A stretch of 64,000 bases of DNA, from the NCBI GenBank assembly GCA_030626845.1, contig DAOUTG010000003.1:1-64000 (forward strand), given 5' to 3'. Below the pieces are notes generated by a model. The model saw only the letters and a list, made by a program, of their open reading frames with translations, made no database searches and was not told the origin of the DNA. This document shows positions 428-9,070 of this stretch, piece by piece. Position 1 is the first letter of the stretch, and each line of letters begins with the position of its first letter. The position numbers were made by a program, and so were the translations under genes. This DNA is from Methylococcaceae bacterium. GTDB taxonomy: Bacteria > Pseudomonadota > Gammaproteobacteria > Methylococcales > Methylomonadaceae.

Positions 428-697
428 ATGCCCAGTATTTCAATGTTTTACGGTCTGATTGTTTATATGTATTTTATGGATAATAAACAACACAAACTTC
501 CGCATATTCATGTGAAATATCAAGATGATGAAGTTGTGCTTTCGATTCCAGAGGGTGATGTTTTGGATGGTAGCATTCCAAAGTCTAAAATGAAATTATT
601 GCAAGCTTGGGTTGAATTACATAAAGATGAATTGATGGCCGATTGGGAGCTTGCCGTTTCAGGTGAGCATCCTTACAAAATTAAACCGCTAAGTTAA
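428..697 (+). CDS. DUF4160 domain protein
   Basis: PSISMFYGLIVYMYFMDNKQHKLPHIHVKYQDDEVVLSIPEGDVLDG is typical of DUF4160; 4 bp from a DUF2442 gene, its usual partner. Confidence 0.75.
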   Translation: MPSISMFYGLIVYMYFMDNKQHKLPHIHVKYQDDEVVLSIPEGDVLDGSIPKSKMKLLQAWVELHKDELMADWELAVSGEHPYKIKPLS

Positions 698-701
698 TAT
701 T

Positions 702-1520
702 ATGAATCCACGCGTTAAATCCGTAAAACCTCTCTGTGATTACCAGTTACTTTTAGAGTTTACTAACGATGAAGTTGGAATTTATGATTGTAAATATTTG
801 CTTGATTTTGGTGTTTTTAAAGAATTACAGGATGTAAATTATTTTAAACAAGTCAGTATTGTTGGTGATACAGTTACTTGGATAAATGACCAAGATATTT
901 GTCCTGATACGCTTTATTTGGAGTCTGAAAAAATGGATGAAATTACCGCTATTTGGTTCAATTTGATGATCGACATTAATAACGATGATGAGTTATGTTC
1001 ATCTGAATTAGCACTTGTTTTTCATTTTGCGTGGCGATTAAAAATGAAATATCAAACAAGAATAAAAAAAATAGATTTTGAAAAAACATTTGCTAATAAT
1101 AAAAAGCTAGATTTATATGTTGAGTTAGATAATAAAAAAATCGGTTTTGAAATTAAGTTCCCAAAAAATTCTAATAATGGAACACCTGATACTGGAGGTC
1201 GCAAAAAAATAATTAATGATATTAAGAGACTTTGTTGGCTAAAAGAAAACAATAAAATAGAGAGGGGATATTTTTTGTGTGCTACAAATTCACTACCTTT
1301 TGTAAATAAAGGAAATAAACCTGATCTTTTTGAAACTTATCAAGGAAGTAGTTATAAAAAAGGTAATAGTTTTCCAGAGTATGAAAAAAGTAGTGTTGAA
1401 CTAGAAATAATACCTTATGATTTTGGGTTTTATTGGAATGATATTTCGCATAATGGTACAAAATATATACTGTCTTCAAAAAATATAAAATATGCTTGGC
1501 TAACCCCGATTATTATTTAG
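702..1520 (+). CDS. DUF2442 domain fused to a predicted PD-(D/E)XK nuclease-like C-terminal domain
   Basis: N-terminal ~80 aa (PRVKSVKPLCDYQLLLEFTNDEVGIYDCKYLL...LYLESEK) is DUF2442-like. C-terminal KLDLYVELDNKKIGFEIKFPKN has a D...ExK pattern. Confidence 0.5.
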   Translation: MNPRVKSVKPLCDYQLLLEFTNDEVGIYDCKYLLDFGVFKELQDVNYFKQVSIVGDTVTWINDQDICPDTLYLESEKMDEITAIWFNLMIDINNDDELCSSELALVFHFAWRLKMKYQTRIKKIDFEKTFANNKKLDLYVELDNKKIGFEIKFPKNSNNGTPDTGGRKKIINDIKRLCWLKENNKIERGYFLCATNSLPFVNKGNKPDLFETYQGSSYKKGNSFPEYEKSSVELEIIPYDFGFYWNDISHNGTKYILSSKNIKYAWLTPIII

Positions 1521-1613
1521 ATATTAAAACTTTTGATTCCCAAAATAACAACTAGGCTTTTTCGATTCCAACATTTTGTGTGGAAACCCATATCAAACGA
1601 ATAAGGAGAATTT

Positions 1614-1826
1614 ATGCTTGAATCAACAAAGCTTCATCAACAGGCAAGTCAGTTACCTCCTTTGGAAAAATTACGCCTTGCTGAATTATTACTTACTGAT
1701 TTAGATAAACCAGACCCTGAAATAACTGAAATTTGGAAAGAAGAAGCTCAAAAAAGATGGCAGGCTTATAAGAATGGTGAGTTAAAAACGACATCCTACG
1801 AATCTGTCATGAAAAAATACCGATGA
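1614..1826 (+). CDS. Addiction-module antitoxin (RelB/TIGR02574-like)
   Basis: QASQLPPLEKLRLAELLLTDLDKPDPEITEIWKEEAQKRWQAYKNGEL pattern; 4-bp overlap with downstream RelE/ParE toxin. Confidence 0.75.
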   Translation: MLESTKLHQQASQLPPLEKLRLAELLLTDLDKPDPEITEIWKEEAQKRWQAYKNGELKTTSYESVMKKYR

Positions 1827-2116
1827 ATATTCGTTTTTTAAATGCGGCTCAAGTGGAATTAGATGACGCTTTTGATTGGTATGAAAACCAAAAGCAATCG
1901 TTAGGACTTGAATTTTTAGATGAATTTGATAGTGCTGTCCAAAGGATCGTTAACTATCCAGAGTTACATTTGCAAATAGATGAAAATATTCACCGTTGTT
2001 TATTTAAACGATTTCCTTATTCGGTTATTTACGGCATTGATGTTGAAAATATTGTCATTATTGCTATTGCACATCAACATCGAAAACCTGATTATTGGCA
2101 AAATAGACTTAATTAA
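1823..2116 (+). CDS. RelE/ParE family toxin
   Basis: MNIRFLNAAQVELDDAFDWYENQKQSLGLEFLDEFDSAVQRI...FPYSVIYGID motifs of plasmid-stabilisation/ParE toxins. Confidence 0.8.
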   Translation: MNIRFLNAAQVELDDAFDWYENQKQSLGLEFLDEFDSAVQRIVNYPELHLQIDENIHRCLFKRFPYSVIYGIDVENIVIIAIAHQHRKPDYWQNRLN

Positions 2117-2119
2117 AAT

Positions 2120-2509
2120 ATGAATAATATAACTTGGCTAGATGAAATCCGTTGGACAAAAGATGGCTTAGTCCCTGTAATTGCACAACAAACAGGTACA
2201 GGCAGAGTAGTAATGTTTGCTTGGATGAATCGAGAATCGTTAGCGTTAACGGTTGAAAAAGGTTATGCGGTTTATTGGTCTCGTTCACGCAATCGCTTAT
2301 GGCGTAAAGGTGAGGAATCAGGGCATCAACAAAAGGTTATCAGTATTCAGCTTGATTGTGATGAAGATGTTATTTTATTGGAAGTTGAACAACAAGGTGG
2401 CATTGCGTGTCATACAGGACGTAAAAGTTGTTTTTATCGTCAGTTGATTGAGGGTGAATGGAAAGCGGTTGAAGCTGTTTTAAAAGATCCTTCGACTATT
2501 TATAAATAG
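2120..2509 (+). CDS. hisI: Phosphoribosyl-AMP cyclohydrolase
   Basis: [41 protein letters not shown]...[28 protein letters not shown]. Confidence 0.95.
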
Positions 2510-2512
2510 TTA

Positions 2513-3232
2513 ATGCTGAGTTTAGATGAGATATTAGGGGTTGCTAATCAAGGAATGACAAAACCTTTTTTATGCAAAGGTTCAGATGGAAAAATTTATT
2601 ATGCTAAAGGTAAGGGTGCAACACCTTCGGGTTTAATTAAAGAATGGATGGCGGCTAATTTAGCTCAAGCTTTTGGCTTGCCAATCCCCACATTTCATAT
2701 TGCCTATATTGATTCTCAACTCGTAAACTATTTTGGTGATGATGCTATTGATAACTTAGGTGCAGGTGAAGTTTTTGTTTCACAGCAAGTAGAATCCGCT
2801 AGTGAATTTAGATACTCGATGCTAAATAAAGTAGCAGTGGAGCTTCAACGAGATATTTTAATTTTTGATTTGTGGATAGAAAATGCAGACCGAACGCTCA
2901 GTGAAATATCTGGAAACCCTAATTTACTGTGGGGAAAATCAACAAACCAACTTTACATTATCGATCATAACTTAGCCTTTGATAATGATTTTAGCTTACA
3001 AGGTTCTTGGGACTTACATCCATTTGTAAAAAATATCCAATTAGATATTCAGGAACGAGAGGAATTAGAAGAAAGATTAATAAAAAGTTTACACGGTTGG
3101 TCGCGATGGTGGAATCAGATTCCCGATGAATGGAAACAACAAAATAAAGACTCCATGATTTTTGATGAAAACCGAACATTAGAACGACTTAAAGCAGAAT
3201 CTCAGGGTGATATTTGGTCAAAGCTATTATGA
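2513..3232 (+). CDS. HipA-like kinase (HipA_2-type) protein
   Basis: FLCKGSDGKIYYAKGKGATPSGLIKEWMAANLAQAFGLPIP...ILIFDLWIENADRTLSEISGNPNLLW...LYIIDHNLAF kinase-like motifs; followed by DUF3037. Confidence 0.7.
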   Translation: MLSLDEILGVANQGMTKPFLCKGSDGKIYYAKGKGATPSGLIKEWMAANLAQAFGLPIPTFHIAYIDSQLVNYFGDDAIDNLGAGEVFVSQQVESASEFRYSMLNKVAVELQRDILIFDLWIENADRTLSEISGNPNLLWGKSTNQLYIIDHNLAFDNDFSLQGSWDLHPFVKNIQLDIQEREELEERLIKSLHGWSRWWNQIPDEWKQQNKDSMIFDENRTLERLKAESQGDIWSKLL

Positions 3233-4044
3233 ATAAAAAAATTTGTCAATACAGTATTATTCGCTTTCAACCTTTTGTTGAAACAGAAGAATTTGCCAAT
3301 ATAGGCATCGTCCTTTATTTGCCTGAAACAAAGGAATTACATTTTAAATTATTATCAGCTAAAGAGCATGAACGCATTACGCATTTTTTTAAACCATTAA
3401 AAAAAGATATTTTTACTAGCACTATTCAAATTATTCATGCTGAATTAGAGCGTATTCAAACGTTACTGACAAAGCCTAAATCAATAAAAATAGATTTTTA
3501 CGAAGACCTTATTCGTCCACGTGAGGACATTATTCAATACAGTAAAAATCGAGCTTTATTTAGTACTAATATAGCAAAAACAGTTAATGATTTATTTGGA
3601 GATTATGTAAAACTTAATTCTGCGCATAAAGAAGGTTATGAACAAAAAATGCAAAAAAAAATTCAAGGCTTATTATCTGATTTAGAGTTGAAAGGATGTT
3701 TCAAAAAAGCTTCTCTAGGTGAAAAAAGTAAATATAACGTAAACTTTCCTTTTGTCAGTAATAATCATCAGGCTGTCATTAAGCCAATTCATTTTAAACA
3801 TTCGGATTCAAATAAATTAATAGAACATGGTTTAGGTTGGTTGATGAAAATTCAACAATTAAAGCGTTATAATTTTATTCAGCCTGATAATGTTTTATTT
3901 GCTTACAGTCCACCTGAAAATAAACAAGGTGTTTTATTTGATGCATTTAGAGATATTAAAGTTCAGATAGAGGATTTCGGGATTGTAACAACTGACATTA
4001 ATGATTCTAAAAATATAACTGACTTTGTTCGTCACTATATTTAA
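3229..4044 (+). CDS. DUF3037 family protein
   Basis: CQYSIIRFQPFVETEEFANIGIVLYLPETKELHFKLL is typical of DUF3037. ATGA overlap with the kinase stop; track start 3214 is probably too early. Confidence 0.7.
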   Translation: MNKKICQYSIIRFQPFVETEEFANIGIVLYLPETKELHFKLLSAKEHERITHFFKPLKKDIFTSTIQIIHAELERIQTLLTKPKSIKIDFYEDLIRPREDIIQYSKNRALFSTNIAKTVNDLFGDYVKLNSAHKEGYEQKMQKKIQGLLSDLELKGCFKKASLGEKSKYNVNFPFVSNNHQAVIKPIHFKHSDSNKLIEHGLGWLMKIQQLKRYNFIQPDNVLFAYSPPENKQGVLFDAFRDIKVQIEDFGIVTTDINDSKNITDFVRHYI

Positions 4045-4080
4045 TAAATTTATGATACTAAATTAATCAATATATATTAC

Positions 4081-4398
4081 ATGAATAATACCTTAAACCA
4101 ACTTGCCGAAGTTTTAGAACAGCGCAAACAACAACCCGCTGATAAATCCTATGTCGCCAGTCTTTATAATAAGGGCTTAGATACGATTTTAAAAAAAATA
4201 GGCGAAGAAGCCACTGAAACCGTGATTGCGGCAAAAGATGGCGATAAACAACAAATTATTTATGAAACCGCCGATTTATGGTTTCATTGCATGGTGCTAT
4301 TAGCACAACAAGACCTGCATCCTGATGATGTGCTTAACGAGTTACAACGCCGTTTCGGATTATCAGGCTTAGAAGAAAAATCCCAACGGTCTAACTAA
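4081..4398 (+). CDS. hisE: Phosphoribosyl-ATP pyrophosphatase
   Basis: [57 protein letters not shown]. Confidence 0.95.
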
Positions 4399-4413
4399 AA
4401 GAGGAGTAACAAC

Positions 4414-4632
4414 ATGGGAATGAGTCCTGTACAATTATTAATTATTTTAGCCATTGTCGTCGTACTCTTTGGTACTAAACGTTTGCGTAATTTAGGAACA
4501 GATTTAGGAGGGGCAATTAAAGGCTTTCGCTCTTCAATGAAAGACGGTGAAGCAAATGGCAACATTACCGAAGAAGACGATAATATTATTGATGGAAACG
4601 TTGAATCTAAATCAAAAGAAAAAATTAAATAA
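4414..4632 (+). CDS. tatA: Sec-independent translocase TatA
   Basis: [42 protein letters not shown]; followed by tatB, tatC. Confidence 0.95.
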
Positions 4633-4640
4633 CACGACCT

Positions 4641-4940
4641 ATGTTTGATATTGGATTTTGGGAATTATGTTTAGTTGGGTTGGTGAGCTTATTAGTCATC
4701 GGCCCTGAACGCTTACCTAAAGCGGCGCGAATTGCTGGGTTTTGGGTGGGTAAGGCGCGTCATACGATTGATGCGGTTAAAATTGAGATTAATCAAGAAT
4801 TACACGCGGAAGAAATGCGCCAAATTGTTGAAGAACAAAAAGCAGAGATGCAAAACTTTCAATCTATTATGGATGAAACGCATGAGGCAACGGAGATGGC
4901 TAAAGATGAACTCATTAATTTAGATAAAAAGTCTTTATGA
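4641..4940 (+). CDS. tatB: Sec-independent translocase TatB
   Basis: MFDIGFWELCLVGLVSLLVIGPERLPKAARIAGFWVGKAR. Confidence 0.95.
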   Translation: MFDIGFWELCLVGLVSLLVIGPERLPKAARIAGFWVGKARHTIDAVKIEINQELHAEEMRQIVEEQKAEMQNFQSIMDETHEATEMAKDELINLDKKSL

Positions 4941-5749
4941 ATCAGGAAAGTCACTCAGAACAACCGTTTATTTCACACCTTATTGAACTACGCAATCGTT
5001 TATTAAAAATTGTTTTAAGTGTTTTATGTGTTTTTTTAGGGTTAGCATCGTATGCCAATGAAATTTATACACTATTATCCGTGCCATTATTACAACATTT
5101 GCCTGAAAATAGTACGATGATTGCGATTGATGTTGCCTCGCCTTTTTTTACCCCCTTCAAACTCACCTTAGTTTTTTCAGCTTTTATCGCTGTTCCCGTA
5201 ATTTTATATCAACTTTGGGCATTTGTCGCCCCAGGTTTATATAAACACGAACGTAAAATGATTTTCCCTTTATTAGTCGCCAGTACGTTATTATTTTATT
5301 TAGGAATAGCCTTTGCCTATTTTGTGGTTTTTCCGTTAGTTTTTGGTTTTTTAACCGCTGCTGCGCCTCAAAATGTCGCTATTATGACCGATATTAGTAA
5401 ATATCTTGATTTTGTCTTAACGATATTTTTCGCATTTGGCATTACTTTTGAAGTTCCTATTTTTACTATTGTCTTGGTGTGGACAGGGTTAACGACTCCG
5501 AAAAGTTTAGCTGAAAAACGCCCTTATATTATTGTAGCAGCTTTTATAATTGGTATGTTTTTAACCCCACCTGATGCGATTTCTCAAACCTTATTAGCCG
5601 TACCCATTTGGTTATTATTTGAAACAGGGTTATTATTTTCTCGGTTTTTTATTCCTAAATCGCGTTATCAAACAGAAGTTGACGATGTTGAATTAGAAGA
5701 TGAATTTGATGAAATTGAACATCAAGAAGATGCTAAAATTCCCCATTAA
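4937..5749 (+). CDS. tatC: Sec-independent translocase TatC
   Basis: FISHLIELRNRLLKI...YQLWAFVAPGLYKHERK...GITFEVPIF. Confidence 0.97.
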   Translation: MNQESHSEQPFISHLIELRNRLLKIVLSVLCVFLGLASYANEIYTLLSVPLLQHLPENSTMIAIDVASPFFTPFKLTLVFSAFIAVPVILYQLWAFVAPGLYKHERKMIFPLLVASTLLFYLGIAFAYFVVFPLVFGFLTAAAPQNVAIMTDISKYLDFVLTIFFAFGITFEVPIFTIVLVWTGLTTPKSLAEKRPYIIVAAFIIGMFLTPPDAISQTLLAVPIWLLFETGLLFSRFFIPKSRYQTEVDDVELEDEFDEIEHQEDAKIPH

Positions 5750-5781
5750 TAGAGACTAAAATTAAGGTGAAATATAAAAAT

Positions 5782-6447
5782 ATGAAACAAGGGTTTTTTA
5801 TTACAGGTACAGATACTGGTGTCGGTAAAACTTGGGCAACGGTTGCATTAATAAATTATTTTAAAATGCGCGGAAAAATAGTTGTCGGCATGAAGCCTAT
5901 TGCCTCAGGATGTAAAGAAATTAACGGTATCTTGAAAAATGAAGATGCCTTGTTATTACAAAAACATGCCTCGGTCGCATTAGATTATCAACAAATTAAT
6001 TTCTATAGCTTTTTAGAACCTGTGTCTCCTCATCTTGCTGCAAATAATGAATGTGTTGATATAGATAAAATTGTTAAGAATTTTAACTGTCTGAAAAGGC
6101 AAGCAGATATTGTTTTAGTTGAAGGGGTAGGGGGGTGGTTAGTTCCTTTGAATAATCAAGGGGATGATGTTGAAATGCTGGCTAAGAAACTTCAATTACC
6201 TGTTATTATGGTGGTTGGAATTTGTTTAGGATGTATTAATCATGCGCGTTTAACTTATCAAGCTATAAAAGCGAGTGGCGTGGAATGCGCGGGCTGGTTA
6301 GCTATGTCGCTTGATCCTGAGATGTTAAGAATAAATGAAAATATAGAAACAATACAACAGGCTGTCGATATTCCATTATTAGGTATTTTACCTTATTCTA
6401 AAAATGCAGATTTTAAAAAATTAGCCGAACAGATTGTTTTTAGTTAA
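5782..6447 (+). CDS. bioD: Dethiobiotin synthetase
   Basis: MKQGFFITGTDTGVGKTWATVAL...MKPIASGC...VLVEGVGGWLVPL; in-frame alternative start at 5767. Confidence 0.93.
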   Translation: MKQGFFITGTDTGVGKTWATVALINYFKMRGKIVVGMKPIASGCKEINGILKNEDALLLQKHASVALDYQQINFYSFLEPVSPHLAANNECVDIDKIVKNFNCLKRQADIVLVEGVGGWLVPLNNQGDDVEMLAKKLQLPVIMVVGICLGCINHARLTYQAIKASGVECAGWLAMSLDPEMLRINENIETIQQAVDIPLLGILPYSKNADFKKLAEQIVFS

Positions 6448-6472
6448 GATTCTAACGAATCACTAAAAACAG

Positions 6473-6501
6473 TTGATTTAATCAACTCTGACCGCTATAA
6501 T
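6473..6501 (+). promoter_or_regulatory. Putative sigma-70 promoter for the atp operon
   Basis: TTGATT (6473-6478), 17-bp spacer, TATAAT (6496-6501). Confidence 0.6.
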
Positions 6502-6514
6502 TCCTCGTTGTGCA

Positions 6515-6892
6515 ATGGAGAGAGAGATGGCGGCGAAAAGAAAAATTTCGACTGTCAGCAAAATTTTAGGGTTACAAATTATTGTTGTTTTAATGATTTG
6601 CTTAGGTTTTTATATAGTAGGTGGACGCTCTACCGTATTATCTCCTTTTTTAGGCGGCATTGTTGCTTTCTTACCGAATCTTTATCTTGCACTACGGATG
6701 GCTCGAGTGACAGGGCAGGATGCTCAAAAAATTGTTCGCTCTTTTTATGCTGGAGAGTCTGGAAAACTAATTTTAACAGCGATGCTGTTTTTTATGATTT
6801 TCCAGATTCCAACTATAGAATTATTACCGCTGTTGACAGCTTATGTCGCAGCCCTATCAGTTTTTTGGTTCGCGCTTATATTTCGCGACTAA
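6515..6892 (+). CDS. atpI: ATP synthase subunit I
   Basis: Small membrane protein (FLGGIVAFLPNLYLALRMARVTGQDAQKIVRSFYAGESGKLILTA) at the head of the atp operon; start may be 6527. Confidence 0.85.
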   Translation: MEREMAAKRKISTVSKILGLQIIVVLMICLGFYIVGGRSTVLSPFLGGIVAFLPNLYLALRMARVTGQDAQKIVRSFYAGESGKLILTAMLFFMIFQIPTIELLPLLTAYVAALSVFWFALIFRD

Positions 6893-6905
6893 CTTTTTTA
6901 AGTGA

Positions 6906-8012
<1,107 letters not shown>

Positions 8013-8054
8013 TATTGTATCATCCATACTTTATAATTAATTGAGGAATGCATC

Positions 8055-8528
8055 GTGAGTATCAATGCTACTCTGATCGGTCAGATGATTACGTTTACAC
8101 TTCTGGTATGGTTTACCATGAAGTATATCTGGCCGCCATTAATAGAGGCTTTAGAAGAACGTAGAAAGAAAATTGCTGAGGGATTAGCTGCAGCCGAAAA
8201 AGGTCAAGAAGAAATGGATTTGGCGGAAAAACGTGCCTTAGTCGTTCTGAAACAAGCTAAAGAACAATCATCTGACATTGTCAGTCTTGCCCAAAAACGT
8301 GCTAATAACGTGGTTGAACAATCAAAAGAAAATGCCAAAAAAGAAGGTGATCGAATGATTGAAGCGGCAAAAGCCCAAATTGAGCAAGATTTACAGCAAG
8401 CCAAAGAAGGTTTGCGCCAGGAAGTTGCTACCTTAGCTCTGAGTGCTGCTGAACAGATTTTGAAAAAAGAAATCAATAAAGCAGAACATAAAACCTTAAT
8501 CGCTAAAGTAGCGAGTCAATTAGGGTAG
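8055..8528 (+). CDS. atpF: F0F1 ATP synthase subunit B
   Basis: [50 protein letters not shown]. Confidence 0.97.
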
Positions 8529-8536
8529 AGACACTT

Positions 8537-9070
8537 ATGAGTGAGTTATCAACTTTAGCAAGACCTTATGCCGAAGCCGTTTTTAAACGTGCTTTGGAGA
8601 CAGAAACTACAGCGCAATGGTCAACAACCTTAGGCTTTGTCGCCGCTGTTGTTAATGATATTAAATTTGCAGCCATTATAGATAATCCTAAAGTAAGTGA
8701 TGAGAAATTAATTAGCTTATTATTGGATATTTGTGGGCAGCAAACGACAACAGAAAGTGAAAGCTTTTTAAAACTACTAGTTCAAAATAATCGCTTAATA
8801 CTTGCAGATTCCATTTATAAACTCTATGAGGCTCAAAAGGCTGAAAAAGAAGGTTATATAGATGTTGATGTCAGCACGGCTTATGCTTTCACCAAAGAAG
8901 ATGAAAAAAAATTTTCAGCAACCTTGGGAAAAGAACTTAATAAAGTGGTTCGCTTGACAATTCAAGTTGATAAATCTTTAATCGGTGGTTTTATAGCCAA
9001 AGCAGGTGACTTAGTGATTGACGGTTCTGTCAAAGGTCAACTTCAAATCATGCAAAAAACTCTACAATAA
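8537..9070 (+). CDS. atpH: F0F1 ATP synthase subunit delta
   Basis: LARPYAEAVFKRAL...LIGGFIAKAGDLVIDGSVKGQLQIM. Confidence 0.97.
   Translation: MSELSTLARPYAEAVFKRALETETTAQWSTTLGFVAAVVNDIKFAAIIDNPKVSDEKLISLLLDICGQQTTTESESFLKLLVQNNRLILADSIYKLYEAQKAEKEGYIDVDVSTAYAFTKEDEKKFSATLGKELNKVVRLTIQVDKSLIGGFIAKAGDLVIDGSVKGQLQIMQKTLQ

Follow-up and report, generated by a model that had tools for sequence, protein, structure and literature searches.

A HipAD-family kinase/DUF3037 gene pair between hisI and hisE in a methanotroph his-tat operon, at a joint that looks like a recurring slot for toxin–antitoxin modules

The closest described relatives of the locus reported here are HipAD modules, two overlapping genes of which the first encodes a HipA-like kinase and the second a DUF3037 protein. 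Two experimental papers deal with them. A HipA/DUF3037 pair beside the reverse transcriptase of Retron-Sda1 was published as a standalone defence unit that guards against Bas51 even when the retron is missing. This protection was lost once the kinase had been deleted, and deleting the DUF3037 gene was toxic (PMC12548924). In the system DS-6, renamed HipAD, mutating a residue predicted to be catalytic in the kinase, DS-6A, led to loss of defence (PMC13092281). HipAD has been found in a defence island, in a prophage or with a retron. In HipBA and HipBST, a toxin of the HipA kinase superfamily is likewise accompanied by an adjoining neutralising gene.

We analysed a window of 64,000 nucleotides from the genome of a Methylococcaceae bacterium, a gammaproteobacterial methanotroph of the order Methylococcales. 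In this window a pair of the same composition is embedded in a his-tat operon. The kinase matched HipA_2 (PF20613) at 251.8 bits, with a curated cut-off of 27, and its partner matched DUF3037 (PF11236) at 75.8 bits (curated cut-off 22.6). The PADLOC profile PDC-M66A matched the kinase at 43.9 bits and PDC-M66B the partner at 65.6 bits, the latter over residues 6-269 and hence nearly the whole length. Along most of their length both proteins were homologous to an annotated pair of Escherichia phage PhiR5_1, the kinase being 36% identical over 211 aa to the HipA toxin and the partner 29% identical over 236 aa to the HipD antitoxin. The phage pair itself matched PDC-M66A/B; it adjoins cI and shows the same gene overlap as the pair in the window. 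On the grounds of the PDC-M66 matches, the homology to PhiR5_1 and the two experimental papers, the assignment of the pair to HipAD (DS-6; PADLOC candidate PDC-M66) is firm as far as sequence comparison reaches, and the module as such is not new. A first-pass annotation had guessed at a kinase-based toxin–antitoxin (TA) or defence unit placed in a housekeeping operon. This guess fits the profile and phage matches as well as the published homologues, in which phage defence depended on the kinase and removal of DUF3037 was toxic (PMC12548924, PMC13092281). Since the identity to annotated HipAD is just 29-36%, target and trigger of the copy in the window may differ.

Several features distinguish the pair from the described systems. 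DUF1829, reported for DS-6B, gave no Pfam match in the partner, where DUF3037 was the one domain found (residues 8-127). Compared with HipBA and HipBST, the kinase is of the HipA_2 family and has 239 aa rather than the full length of HipA, the predicted toxin gene comes first, and the predicted neutralising role falls to a DUF3037 protein; Pfam matched no Xre/HTH family (HipB-type) in either neighbour of the pair. Whereas the Retron-Sda1 module adjoins a reverse transcriptase, the pair in the window has none beside it and is flanked by his and tat genes. Among named relatives, those nearest to the kinase came from Methyloglobulus; distant ones were found in three phage records and 20 records of a plasmid collection. 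No viral contig with a close relative of the kinase was found in IMG/VR, and a sequence search of solved structures returned no relative. The kinase and the DUF3037 protein were modelled with AlphaFold2 on alignments of 4 and 3 sequences; with a pLDDT of about 41, the models were too poor for use.

In the window the genes run in the order hisI, kinase, DUF3037 gene, hisE, tatA, tatB and tatC, all in one direction (Table 1). The hisI stop codon (2507-2509) is followed by three bases (TTA) and then by the ATG of the kinase at 2513. The TGA stop of the kinase (3230-3232) shares an ATGA overlap with the ATG of the DUF3037 gene at 3229, and 36 bases separate the end of the latter (4044) from hisE. 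The 3-bp gap and the ATGA overlap had both been given correctly to the base in the first-pass annotation, and hisE and tatABC do lie downstream of the pair as it had said. Two further units, both absent from it, precede hisI on the same strand. The nearer one is an Unstab_antitox/ParE-type pair, the toxin gene of which stops three bases ahead of hisI. It is preceded by a DhiT-like/DUF2442 unit (428-1520), whose DhiT-like protein scored 96.8 bits against NF048015, just under the cut-off of 100. This unit corresponds to the hisF–hisI interval of relatives, where the same order follows hisF; because the window begins at the first base of the contig, hisF itself would lie off the contig. The DUF2442 (DhiA-type antitoxin) domain of the protein at 702-1520 is extended at the C-terminus by some 200 aa, which contain a D...ExK-like stretch (LYVELDNKKIGFEIKF). 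A form of similar length was seen in G146, and G001 and G004 carry an 83-aa form alone.

Table 1. Features of the his-tat locus and its upstream neighbours, with positions in the window
Feature	Position	Strand	Evidence
DhiT-like toxin (DUF4160) and DUF2442 protein with C-terminal extension	428-697 and 702-1520	+	PF13711 87.2 bits, PF10387 51.8 bits
Unstab_antitox and ParE-type toxin pair, just upstream of hisI	1614-1826 and 1823-2116	+	PF09720 58.9 bits; PF05016 36.6 bits
hisI (phosphoribosyl-AMP cyclohydrolase; PRA-CH), left flank of the insert	2120-2509	+	PF01502 121.6 bits; NF000768 173.8 bits
Kinase of the HipA_2 family, predicted toxin (HipA of HipAD / PDC-M66A)	2513-3232	+	PF20613, PDC-M66A, PhiR5_1 homology, conserved active-site residues
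DUF3037 protein, predicted antitoxin (HipD / PDC-M66B)	3229-4044	+	PF11236, PDC-M66B, PhiR5_1 homology
hisE (phosphoribosyl-ATP pyrophosphatase), right flank of the insert	4081-4398	+	PF01503 78 bits; NF001611 169.9 bits
tatA, tatB, tatC, continuation of the operon	4414-5749 (tatA from 4414, tatB from 4641, tatC 4937-5749)	+	translations; spacing constant in relatives

All joints from hisI through tatC measure 36 bases or less or overlap. Together with the common direction of the genes and the recurrence of the kinase/DUF3037 pairing across Gammaproteobacteria, where its joint overlaps or nearly does so, this argues that the layout is not due to chance. No terminator-like site was found within 1400-4700. 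Given the short joints and the lack of such a site between hisI and tatA, the pair is likely co-transcribed with the his-tat genes. Promoter-like matches were at chance level (13 found, 14.6 expected), so that a weak internal promoter is still possible.

The first-pass annotation had made its guess depend on the presence of the kinase active-site residues, and these were found in the window. K32, E44, D119, N124, D126, R127, N135, N137 and D151, invariant in 11 relatives, are all there, and the kinase matched 20/20 invariant columns of the 11-sequence alignment. It has no internal stop, and its DUF3037 partner is of full length. Decay of the kinase was observed in relatives. In G099 it carries a stop at the W45 codon and has lost, in frame, the 24 bp for D126-R127 and the residues that follow, next to an intact DUF3037 gene; an error in the MAG sequence could account for the single stop, less easily for the deletion. 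In the one-contig genome G070 the kinase gene is spread across three frames, again beside an intact DUF3037 gene, and in G593 both genes are broken. No intact kinase without a DUF3037 partner was found in the family genomes. Decay of the kinase beside an intact DUF3037 gene is the pattern that would be expected of a toxin and its antitoxin.

The hisI–hisE joint was then compared across the family. Of 151 genomes sampled, 114 carried hisI and hisE adjacent on one contig; distances were taken from match to match, the coordinates of the hits being paired by hand. A comparison of this spacing had been proposed in the first-pass annotation. Most relatives have no insert, with a distance of at most 34 bp in 87 of the 114 genomes, an overlap of 4 or 8 bases being the usual arrangement in those that were read directly. 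A distance of 61-143 bp was found in 14 genomes, and in the remaining 13 the joint was opened by about 470-1575 bp. The occupants of these 13 inserts were diverse. HipAD was present in G000 and G099, an orphan ORF with an Unstab_antitox/ParE pair in G001 and G004, an Unstab_antitox/ParE pair in G076, a DUF2281/YoeB pair in G146 and an LRAT-domain protein in G155. G030 carried a HicB-like/HicA pair, in which HicA_toxin matched at 55.1 bits and the partner merely resembles HicB. A pair of small unnamed proteins occupied the joint in G009, G075, G078 and G097, and in G026 one of these two small proteins was found together with a HicB-like protein. Beyond these inserts, HipAD was seen at the same joint in G174 and G602 of genus g20, where the locus ends at a contig edge, within the first codons of hisE in G174 and inside the kinase in G602. 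HipAD thus occupies the hisI–hisE joint in four genomes of three genera.

In a tree of HisI, HisE and TatC, four g22 genomes on very short branches bore four different cargoes, and empty relatives were interleaved with the insert-bearing lineages, which consequently do not form one clade. Since other TA pairs take the place of HipAD in related species, the hisI–hisE joint looks like a recurring slot for TA modules, the occupant of which changes between close relatives. The pair had been handled as a one-off in the first-pass annotation; it appears instead as one occupant of a slot with changing cargo.

Two observations on individual inserts may be added. The small unnamed pair (L053, L077, L079 and L082, from four genera) consists of a protein of about 78 aa with the motif GRWRKCKG and one of about 76 aa with the motifs CIDN.DYP and IDESGEDYLYP. 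One member of each protein was scanned without a Pfam match, and the pair is a candidate new TA pair. In L034 (G001), the ParE-type toxin ORF at 6260-6865 has no stop and runs in frame into hisE, yielding a 201-aa ParE-HisE frame; the start codon of hisE is TTG there.

We consider it probable that the pair in the window is a HipAD TA defence module, which probably travels on the his-tat transcript and sits in a his joint that exchanges its occupants across lineages of the methanotroph family. The kinase would act as the toxin and, by analogy with HipA, phosphorylate a component of translation, and the DUF3037 protein (HipD) would keep it inactive. The toxin-first order and the ATGA overlap would couple synthesis of the antitoxin to that of the toxin. 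A phage infection would presumably disturb the balance of the two, whereupon the infected cell would be arrested. No evident promoter or terminator belongs to the module itself, and it probably rides on the his-tat transcript. The his joint would have been opened in several lineages of the family, and its occupants would now be exchanged.

Instead of a defence system, the pair may be a selfish addiction module that has taken up residence and is kept because its loss would free the toxin and its deletion would endanger hisI and hisE, any effect on phage being incidental. HipAD has a patchy distribution (21 of 237 family genomes), decayed kinases stand beside intact DUF3037 partners and unrelated TA modules succeed one another at the same joint, all of which speaks for addiction. 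However, the published homologues defend against phage in a kinase-dependent manner (PMC12548924, PMC13092281), and HipAD adjoins cI in a temperate phage, a usual spot for anti-phage cargo. We therefore regard addiction in place of defence as a possible but somewhat doubtful account; the two are not exclusive.

As to the arrival of the module of the preferred reading, HipAD in the his joint, the boundaries of the insert showed repeats at chance level, no target-site duplication and no att-like pair. G000 and G099, which both carry HipAD at hisI–hisE, belong to sister genera. In the DUF3037 tree the G000 copy grouped with the copy of G602, from a different genus; HipAD relationships were drawn from this tree alone, the kinase tree having been set aside as unreliable for its partial G602 row, which was in a wrong frame. 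That HipAD reached hisI–hisE just once, in an ancestor, was disfavoured, as constraining the four his-linked copies to one group in the DUF3037 tree gave a worse tree (AU p = 0.016). A joint transfer of hisE and HipAD into G602 was suggested by the hisE tree, which puts this genome with the insert-bearing genera, and the tatC tree, which puts it firmly in its own genus. It was not significant, the ordinary placement of G602 in the hisE tree not being rejected (AU p = 0.29). The cargo would most plausibly be exchanged by homologous recombination in the flanking hisI and hisE genes, the sole basis for which is its fit to the discordance of the trees.

Two other joints of the his operon were opened as well, hisA–hisF in 10/14 genomes and hisF–hisI in 8/14, in one of them by just 219 bases; these genomes had been chosen for their hisI–hisE inserts or as neighbours of such genomes, so the rates are not family-wide. 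The cargo at hisA–hisF was a HEPN-like pair and that at hisF–hisI comprised DhiT/DUF2442, PIN, Uma2, HNH and T5orf172 proteins. The HEPN-like protein and its small partner of about 105 aa were seen between hisA and hisF in several genera (L043, L053, L079, L095). Judged by their sequences, at least three joints of the his operon (hisA–hisF, hisF–hisI and hisI–hisE) hold interchangeable cargo of TA type in this family. In the same or overlapping genome sets, the members of which are not independent of one another, hisB–hisH and hisH–hisA were opened in 0/23, the eight atp junctions in 0/105 and tatA–tatB and tatB–tatC in 0/95; hisE–tatA exceeded 200 bases once, by one base.

These controls bear on the reading that the invasion of hisI–hisE is nothing special and that modules of TA-rich genomes land in any operon. 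HipAD between dapD and dapE in Methyloglobulus argues for it, since other biosynthetic operons are evidently hit too. Against it stand the unopened atp, tat and hisB–hisH–hisA junctions of the same genomes, as well as the genome of the window itself, which is not rich in TA-type modules: five ParE-type and two Unstab_antitox matches were found, one of the latter in the pair upstream of hisI, and the copy in the window is the one DUF3037 match in the 2.5-Mb assembly. We consider such indiscriminate insertion unlikely. That his joints are special among all biosynthetic operons is nevertheless not proven, because the control operons are more essential and the dap operon of Methyloglobulus holds HipAD. 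A recruitment of the pair to control the making of histidine or export by Tat, say through phosphorylation of HisI, HisE or a Tat protein, is highly improbable. Despite its position at the hisI–hisE joint of four genomes from three genera, the pair is missing from most relatives with the same operon, unrelated modules occupy the same joint, other HipAD copies of the family lie elsewhere (for example in the Methyloglobulus dap operon, at hsdM or at an integrase), and the kinase of G099 is dead with no visible loss to the his genes.

The HipAD copies outside the his operon were observed in several settings, the neighbouring genes being named by eye. In L068 and L174 (Methyloglobulus) the pair lies between dapD-like and dapE-like genes of an amino-acid operon, as read from the translations. 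In L167 (G620, 555-3255) it stands right behind an integrase-like ORF of 410 aa, a possible mobile carrier. In L170 (G084, 4491-8645) HipAD and a Uma2-like ORF have an alr-like ORF on one side and, on the other, a fragment similar to the second half of that ORF, an arrangement that looks as if the two had been inserted into or beside alr.

Returning to HipAD as a defence module in an exchanging his joint, a broader proposal can be made. In this methanotroph family, the translationally coupled joints hisA–hisF, hisF–hisI and above all hisI–hisE may form a chromosomal exchange slot. Unrelated TA and nuclease modules would be inserted there, passed from species to species through recombination within the conserved his genes on either side and read from the biosynthetic transcript, no integrase being needed. 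We put this forward tentatively, as plausible but short of probable. In the literature on TA modules within the his operon no relevant account was found.

The module itself is already known, and less expected is its place inside the his operon. Searches for defence genes lean on defence islands and mobile elements, and here a single joint of an ordinary biosynthetic operon was found to hold HipAD and other TA modules, with unrelated ones taking their place from one close relative to the next. If the exchange proposal is true, conserved housekeeping operons would be a hunting ground for TA and defence pairs still to be discovered, among which the small unnamed pair of four inserts would be a candidate, and such exchange would offer a simple, integrase-free route for moving these modules.
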